The notes below the pieces were generated by a model. The model searched no databases and had not been told where the DNA came from. It worked only from the letters and a program-made list of their open reading frames with translations. The position numbers were made by a program, and so were the translations under genes. Of a stretch of 64,000 nucleotides of DNA, positions 37,429-38,353 are shown piece by piece. Position 1 is the stretch's first letter, and every line of letters begins with the position of its first letter. Source of the DNA: an uncultured bacterium (GTDB taxonomy: Bacteria > DRYD01); the NCBI GenBank assembly GCA_937139605.1, contig CAKZQG010000006.1:1-64000 (forward strand), written 5' to 3'.

Positions 37429-37480
37429 ATAGTTAAAATATAAGATATATAGGGAACAATTAAAATAAATTCAATTTTAT

Positions 37481-37618
37481 ATGCAAGAGTTTATAAAAAA
37501 AACAAGAAGAATATTTAAAAGAAAGAAAAACAACGTAAAAAACAATACTAAAATTTATAAAAAACCCCTAGAACAACAAATAATCAAAATTAACAAACAT
37601 ATTAAGTTAATAAGCTAA
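37481..37618 (+). CDS. Possible 45-aa basic small protein
   Basis: An ATG-started frame of 45 codons encodes a very basic peptide (MQEFIKKTRRIFKRKK... ending HIKLIS). The nearest purine-rich site, AGGGA, is about 25 bases upstream, too far to be convincing. Lys/Asn-rich frames arise by chance in DNA this A-rich, so it is listed only as possible. Confidence 0.2.
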   Translation: MQEFIKKTRRIFKRKKNNVKNNTKIYKKPLEQQIIKINKHIKLIS

Positions 37619-37747
37619 ATATAAAAAACATAAACAGTAAACCAAAAATCCCCAAAATGAAGGCAACTATTTAAAGGAAAAAGAAAATAAGATACTTTTA
37701 AAGAGTTGTTAAAGGAGTTTTTGTATATAGATAAGCTATATTTTTTA

Positions 37748-37870
37748 CTTGGTACAAGGTTAGCCTAATACCGCCTGCAGACCATAAGGCTAATATGATT
37801 AACATCAATTGGCGGGATACAAATAGGTCTGCCAAAAGTGTATAAGAATATACACTTTTGCTAACCAGGA
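37748..37870 (+). ncRNA. Candidate pseudoknotted structured RNA / riboswitch leader
   Basis: The leader of the gene at 37877 folds into a compact shape. An outer stem GGTTAGC (37758-37764)/GCTAACC (37860-37866) encloses two interleaved helices: CCGCC (37771)/GGCGG (37811) and GCAGACC (37777)/GGTCTGC (37826), an H-type pseudoknot. A perfect 11-bp hairpin (37834-37859, loop AGAA) then abuts the outer stem. CTTGGT (37748-37753) could instead pair with ACCAGG (37864-37869), covering the AGGA ribosome site. The region is visibly richer in G+C than its surroundings. It fits none of the known riboswitch or ribozyme consensus sequences I recall. Confidence 0.55.
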
Positions 37871-37876
37871 TAAAAA

Positions 37877-38353
37877 ATGGAAAATCAAAATAATACCAAA
37901 AATCAAGGTACTTCAATAACAGAACATTTCTCAAATATCCTTAATTATTTACAATCTTCATACAATGATTTAAATAATGAACAAGATGAATCTAAGAAAA
38001 ATGAAATTATAGCCAAATTACAAGAACTAAAAGAATATATTCAAACAGATATAGAGCAAATAAATAATATGCTTAATTCTTCTTTAGAAAAGAAAGAAGA
38101 AGATATAAATAATTCTGATTTATCAGAAGACATAAAAGAGTTTTTAGTAGCTATGCATGATGCTATGATTGATATACATACCCATTTTCTAAATATAGCA
38201 GAATTATTCCTTGAATTCATAGATACTCTTAATCCAGAAATTTTAAGTAATATAAAGCAATTAATAAATGATGGGGTAATAAAATTAGAAGAGTTTAGTG
38301 AAATTAACAAACAATTAAAAGAGCTATTAGAAAAGCAAGAATTCAATGCCTAA
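37877..38353 (+). CDS. Acidic helical protein downstream of structured leader, unknown
   Basis: This 158-residue, acidic, all-helical protein has no signal peptide and no cysteines. Residues about 15-90 look like a coiled coil, and a second helical block (about 95-155) contains DIHTHFLNIAELFLEFIDTL. No family is recognised. The ATG follows AGGA by six bases, and that site can be masked by the upstream RNA, so expression is probably controlled at initiation. Confidence 0.65.
   Translation: MENQNNTKNQGTSITEHFSNILNYLQSSYNDLNNEQDESKKNEIIAKLQELKEYIQTDIEQINNMLNSSLEKKEEDINNSDLSEDIKEFLVAMHDAMIDIHTHFLNIAELFLEFIDTLNPEILSNIKQLINDGVIKLEEFSEINKQLKELLEKQEFNA

Follow-up and report, generated by a model that had tools for sequence, protein, structure and literature searches.

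A pseudoknotted leader RNA upstream of unrelated genes in Aquificota and in the family of an uncultured bacterium, with some copies at the right end of TnpB-type elements

Results

A copy of the leader RNA lies upstream of a gene of no assigned function

The window, the 64-kb stretch of DNA analysed here, contains one copy of a leader RNA on the + strand, at positions 37759 to 37860. The features of the locus are as follows.

37455-37869, + strand: probable inserted unit, an internally deleted TnpB-type element, with inferred borders
37748-37753, + strand: CTTGGT loop strand, which can pair with ACCAGG at 37864-37869
37759-37766, + strand: P1 5' strand, GTTAGCCT, pairing with 37787-37794
37771-37775, + strand: P2 5' strand, CCGCC, pairing with GGCGG at 37811-37815
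37777-37783, + strand: P3 5' strand, GCAGACC, pairing with GGTCTGC at 37826-37832
37787-37794, + strand: P1 3' strand, AGGCTAAT, partner of 37759-37766
37811-37815, + strand: P2 3' strand, GGCGG, partner of CCGCC at 37771-37775
37816-37825, + strand: A-rich conserved loop, GATACAAATA, which crosses P2; RATANAAATA is nearly constant among members
37826-37832, + strand: P3 3' strand, GGTCTGC, partner of GCAGACC at 37777-37783
37833-37860, + strand: P4 hairpin, 11 bp (AAAAGTGTATA/TATACACTTTT) plus a closing C-G pair
37864-37869, + strand: ACCAGG, the constant right end of the element, whose AGG is the present ribosome site
37877-38353, + strand: downstream gene, 158 aa, no assigned function

A first-pass annotation of the window had described a closed structure at this locus, with an outer 7-bp stem, two interleaved helices of 5 and 7 bp, and a perfect 11-bp hairpin. 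Both interleaved helices are present in the letters at the positions given for them, as is the hairpin, which has an additional closing pair. The segment ends, as the annotation had noted, on the ribosome site of the downstream gene (AGG, 7 nt before the ATG at 37877), and it is richer in G+C than its surroundings (0.398 versus 0.228 for the whole window). Even with the pseudoknot excluded, the nested fold of the segment has a z-score of -5.2, and none of 200 shuffled sequences folded as well. The outer 7-bp stem did not hold up: its strands, GGTTAGC and GCTAACC (37758-37764 with 37860-37866), exist as letters, but the pairing is not retained in most other copies or in Aquificota, and we rejected it as a real helix. 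Its 5' strand belongs instead to P1, a strongly covarying helix that the annotation had overlooked.

The 158-aa protein encoded downstream has no Pfam match above the cut-off and, among 40 genomes searched, is confined to the family of the window's genome. Its orthologs in the sister genome G001 (80% identical) and in G002, G003 and G005 (about 50%) all lack a leader of the type seen in the window.

The leader RNA belongs to a family concentrated in Aquificota

A DNA search of the window's genome, G000, found 16 similar copies including that in the window, all in the same orientation and just upstream of a start codon, and each before an unrelated gene. The same search of G001 found one partial copy, before an isocitrate dehydrogenase (IDH)-like gene, with a wholly different P1 (GGGAAC/GGTTCC) whose pairing is still intact. 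A model of the core (R1) recovered divergent members with different P1 and P3 sequences, and broader searches brought the family to ~200 members in total. A strict pattern matched records classified under Sulfurihydrogenibium, Hydrogenobaculum, 'Acidobacteria' and, for G001, 'Deltaproteobacteria', names that may be in error for metagenome-assembled genomes; it was absent from the viral contigs searched. A looser exact pattern found members in 62 of 136 Aquificota genomes. The reversed pattern gave no matches in genome sets that have well over 100 matches to the real one, indicating that occurrence exceeds chance.

Copy numbers were counted with a second covariance model, R2, in which P2 is treated as a pair. 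They were 35 in G091, 25 in G000, 18 in G060, 16 in G104, nine each in G001 and G002, and six each in G003 and G005; R2 found no copies in G093, G043, G105, G108 or G154. A domain-wide sample of 386 genomes yielded few members outside the hot-spring bacteria of the Aquificota and the window's own family. One of these outlying members, in G283, precedes argG; another, shared by three genomes of a single genus, precedes a phenylacetate-CoA-ligase-like gene; and a third, in G323, precedes a transporter-like gene. Pattern matches in G511, G361, G390, G323 and G295 looked accidental, the real-looking member in G323 being a separate one. Members end ~10-60 nt upstream of a start codon on the same strand; open reading frame starts were picked by length, so that the distance for any single copy may be wrong.

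The annotation had proposed a search of Rfam, and no known class was matched. No Rfam 15 family reached its curated gathering cut-off for the leader RNA (the window and 17 loci), and the window stretch, on its own strand, gave nothing up to E = 10. A tRNA-like or tmRNA reading found support from neither ARAGORN nor Rfam. The leader RNA is not described in the main text of a 2014 survey of Aquificales non-coding RNAs, and our search of the openly accessible literature found no description of it.

Three mutually interleaved helices covary

The helices follow the order P1, P2, P3, P1', P2', P3', usually with the P4 hairpin next. Because P1 is interleaved with both P2 and P3, the fold is of the form ABCABC. 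We aligned 45 diverse members (alignment A3) and observed changes on both sides in nine of nine P1 pairs and six of seven P3 pairs. The structure as a whole was 86.0% paired, compared with 74.2 ± 0.8 for shuffled alignments, and covariation was 0.336, compared with 0.135 for shuffled alignments and at most 0.155 for slid controls. P2 appeared invariant in A3 because the search pattern had required it. Among 72 members found by R2, in an alignment that was fitted to P2, this helix covaried in four of five pairs and was 99.7% paired (covariation 0.337 versus 0.124), with the variants CCGCC/GGCGG, GCGCC/GGCGC, CCGCT/AGCGG, GCACC/GGTGC and CTGCC/GGCAG. As an independent control, P3 was read at a fixed offset; 122 of 136 copies had it complete. 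The check that the annotation had named, compensatory changes in its two interleaved helices, thus came out in favour of the structure, and the loss of these helices in homologues, which it had named as grounds for refutation, is the opposite of what we found.

Copies that have no transposon sequence upstream (solo copies, described below) retain the same features. Their P1 strands form a mean of 9.2 bp with their own partners versus 5.2 bp with swapped partners. In solo copies outside the window's family, a P4 hairpin of varying sequence is present in 106 of 129, with 17.5 expected; P4 is frequently missing within the family. Two single strands, AATA and RATANAAATA, are near-constant, the constancy of the latter being partly imposed by the search pattern. 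A protein-coding cause of the conservation was considered and rejected: the open frame ...SLIPPADLRANLKWRDTNRSA seen in Aquificota is explained by tnpB, whose end extends into the RNA in full-length transposon units, and most G000 copies break this frame, their P3-P2 spacer lengths not being multiples of three. We conclude that the pseudoknot RNA family is almost certainly real.

Leaders precede housekeeping genes of many functions

NCBIfam named 38 of 40 downstream proteins tested, all as products of ordinary housekeeping genes, with matches that mostly begin no more than a few residues from the N-terminus; a BFN-like and an L32-like protein were left unnamed. The genes named by NCBIfam encode, among others, ribosomal proteins (S4, S11, S18, S20, L17, L21 and L25), RpoA, EF-Ts, IF-3, RRF, trigger factor, Rho, Hfq, HPF, RecA, FtsZ, FtsH, thioredoxin, IlvC, malate dehydrogenase, AcpP, HtpX, MreB, ArgG, Asd, Kbl, AtpB and AtpH; other names, including L32, BFN, NuoL, TrpS, LexA and LeuC, were assigned by reading the sequence only. 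The same gene can carry a leader across genomes, as at 13 htpX loci, five acpP loci and five hsp20 loci. A -10-like box starts 10-19 nt upstream of P1 in 49 of 133 leaders, versus 18.9 ± 3.8 in shuffled sequence; other leaders lie within operons, near the preceding stop codon. Upstream of a bifunctional-nuclease-like gene in G001 and G000 (L064 and L082), the leader starts a few tens of bases past a tRNA gene, an arrangement that suggests co-transcription and processing.

Of the Aquificota leader genes, 62% (background 44%) also have a Shine-Dalgarno match of 4 nt or longer, and in the window's family the figure is 25% (background 28-34%); with uncurated starts and rough genome-wide figures, these values amount to no clear depletion. 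The retention in Aquificota argues that the leader does not generally replace the Shine-Dalgarno sequence.

The breadth of the gene set bears directly on what the annotation had inferred, namely a new riboswitch class or an autoregulatory site gating a single gene. The first idea stands in part: this is a conserved, pseudoknotted, cis-acting leader that matches no Rfam family. A metabolite switch would be expected upstream of genes of one pathway or of one ligand's transport, and the downstream genes are unrelated, making a single-pathway metabolite switch unlikely. The second idea finds no support. Ribosomal-protein autoregulation would be restricted to the regulator's operon, and the leader precedes many unrelated genes; gating or autoregulation of one gene of no assigned function is likewise at odds with an RNA that precedes dozens of others, and the G001 ortholog of the gene at 37877 has no leader.

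Some copies form the right end of a TnpB-type element

Among 140 collected copies, 45, including that in the window, also share sequence upstream of P1 (element-type), and 95 have no element sequence upstream (solo). Several element-type units hold a complete tnpB gene encoding about 540-560 aa (NCBIfam TIGR01765, TIGR01766), and several copies overlap the tnpB 3' end. These full-length units have a constant right end, ...ACCAGG(T), followed in most by a host start codon 4-11 nt on, and a left end shortly upstream of the tnpB start codon. Their left ends are not uniform, and the left flanks resemble a Shine-Dalgarno sequence in only six of 13. Of the 45 element-type copies, 32 contain CTTGG and 26 contain CCAGG; the corresponding counts among the 95 solo copies are one and three. 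The right-end CCAGG can pair with the upstream loop CTTGG, much as GAGGCTG pairs with CAGCCTC at the end of a sister TnpB clade, whose right end is complete without the leader RNA. CTTGGT at 37748-37753 is probably what remains of the guide-RNA pseudoknot of the element.

G001 has no counterpart of the unit at 37455-37869: both flanks align at its orthologous site, and the ortholog of the 37877 gene has a clean Shine-Dalgarno sequence there, GCGGAGG. The upstream part of the unit is common to other G000 copies and includes a weak tnpB remnant at ~37553-37612 (57% over 21 aa, E = 0.48). Its left border, set at the GG of ATATAGG, is uncertain by tens of bases. Several further orthologous sites in G001 have no element and a clean GGAGG-type Shine-Dalgarno sequence; some sites were unreadable, and two have no clear Shine-Dalgarno sequence. 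Insertion of IS607 elements involves no duplication. These elements have ends and targets in GG (PMC6188088), and the target-adjacent motifs (TAMs) of IS607 TnpB proteins are AGGAG or GAGGG (PMC11061315). The constant right end CCAGG and the GGAGG at several empty sites in G001 would fit this published behaviour. Given the shared upstream sequence, the constant right ends and the element-free sites in G001, internal deletion of such elements is the best reading of the 16 copies in G000, in which weak tnpB remnants persist. Judged from sequence comparison, the window copy appears to be the right end of such a TnpB (IS607-like) element inserted into the Shine-Dalgarno sequence of the 37877 gene, with inferred borders. 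Homing of TnpB only into pre-existing leaders is disfavoured because the readable G001 starts have no leader, save that of the IDH-like gene, which is of the solo type.

We observed no tnpA (serine recombinase) gene beside the tnpB units inspected. One unit has a 253-aa open reading frame immediately upstream (L293, 1864-2625, in G140), a candidate transposase. Five full-length tnpB units in G138 (L217, L219-L221 and L223) have a common ~50-nt insert upstream of P1, which contains an inverted CRISPR-repeat-like sequence, ATCGTGTTTCAAA...TTTGAAACACGAT. Element-type copies have a single P1 sequence within a genome, differing between genomes (G138, G140, G141, G071, G122/G123 and G072), as would be expected if one unit had spread recently and its P1 sequences had evolved in concert. 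The loop of P4 in the window (37833-37860) and in other G000 copies occurs in both orientations, AAGAAT and ATTCTT, as if inverted.

The leader also occurs in genomes in which TnpB was not found. A TIGR01766 search found no TnpB in G000, G001, G060, G042, G075, G098 or G118, drafts that may miss genes, and all seven contain leader members. A TnpB clade probably took up a host leader; alternatively, the leaders may have been domesticated from element ends.

Discussion

The location of the leader and its gene set favour, with a probability of roughly 0.55, a general cis-acting leader that acts on translation or mRNA stability and that is also transposon-borne. Such a leader would require no dedicated ligand. 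It would form a rigid block before the ribosome site, supporting translation initiation, shielding the 5' end of the mRNA, or both. In the window, insertion appears to have replaced the native ribosome site of the 37877 gene with the leader and the terminal AGG of the element. In this way the leader could let needed genes stay active when the element occupies their Shine-Dalgarno sites. A fuller version of this proposal is more tentative: in thermophiles, dozens of housekeeping genes would depend on the pseudoknot leader to recruit the ribosome or to sense a global growth signal, and a TnpB clade would have built it into its right end, inserting into the Shine-Dalgarno sites of needed genes with translation kept.

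The alternative that survives best, although we consider it unlikely, is a switching leader, bound by a global signal (alarmone, nucleotide, Mg2+ or temperature) or by one RNA-binding protein and coordinating translation of a large growth and stress regulon. Its position next to the ribosome site, the growth and stress functions in the gene set, and loops conserved well beyond base pairing are all consistent with this role, and a switching leader would show the same location and gene set as a general one. The gene set contains no single pathway, however. The annotation had proposed a competing 6-bp pairing that would cover the ribosome site; CTTGGT/ACCAGG is present in the letters and could mask the AGG in element-type copies, but solo copies conserve no alternative pairing.

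It is improbable that the RNA is only the omega RNA scaffold at the right end of TnpB elements, its copies being remnants with no host function. The omega RNAs described in the literature are pseudoknotted and terminate at the element's right end (PMC11061315, PMC10278001), and the element sequence upstream of 45 of 140 copies and the overlaps with the tnpB 3' end agree with this. The location expected of an omega RNA, at the tnpB right end and ahead of the guide, is seen for the full-length units and not for the 95 solo copies; covarying leaders occur in genomes with no detected TnpB and before the same gene in many genomes, and the right end of the sister TnpB clade is complete although it lacks the RNA.

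A self-cleaving ribozyme that trims the mRNA 5' end is the least probable reading, since the compact multi-pseudoknot fold, the conserved single strands and the location of some copies inside operons are set against an unconserved UAA and the lack of any Rfam ribozyme match (E ≤ 10 for the window, gathering score for 17 loci). We rejected twister in particular: GCCUAAUACCGCC resembles the twister cleavage strand, a likeness of strings with no family match, and the helix order is unlike those of twister, HDV and pistol.

The family is a large and well-supported addition to the structured RNAs of a deep phylum, Aquificota, in which, to our knowledge, few regulatory RNAs are known. Neither the fold, with its three interleaved helices, nor the range of genes served matches a leader class known to us. 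Two questions can now be tested: whether a pseudoknot in bacterial mRNAs promotes initiation or protects 5' ends in thermophiles, and whether a TnpB transposon captured a host leader for harmless insertion into Shine-Dalgarno sequences or the leaders derive from transposon ends.

Comparison with known systems

The closest parallel among transposon RNAs is the TnpB omega RNA, or IS607 right-end RNA (the RAGATH-18-derived reRNA; PMC11061315, PMC10278001), which is likewise pseudoknotted. In one TnpB clade the leader lies at the right end, where it overlaps the tnpB terminus and precedes the end sequence; for IS607, GG ends and Shine-Dalgarno-like TAMs are reported (PMC6188088, PMC11061315). By contrast, a search of Rfam gave the leader no RAGATH-18 match, tnpB is missing from most copies, the RNA is tied to host start codons, and the sister TnpB clade does without it.

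Like the preQ1 and SAM-II translational riboswitches, the leader is a small pseudoknot adjoining a ribosome site, and an A-rich loop runs alongside one of its stems. It differs from them in having three mutually interleaved helices, dozens of unrelated downstream genes and no known ligand, and in that the Shine-Dalgarno sequence of solo copies lies outside the fold. Autoregulatory ribosomal-protein leaders such as the rpsO pseudoknot also place an mRNA pseudoknot near the ribosome site, and some copies of the leader precede ribosomal protein genes, but the leader spans unrelated genes rather than a single operon. The stabilising 5' stem-loops of the ompA type resemble it in providing a structured 5' end, with a -10-like box before P1 in about one-third of leaders; unlike them, the leader is a conserved pseudoknot family with a near-constant loop sequence, distributed over many genes and genera.
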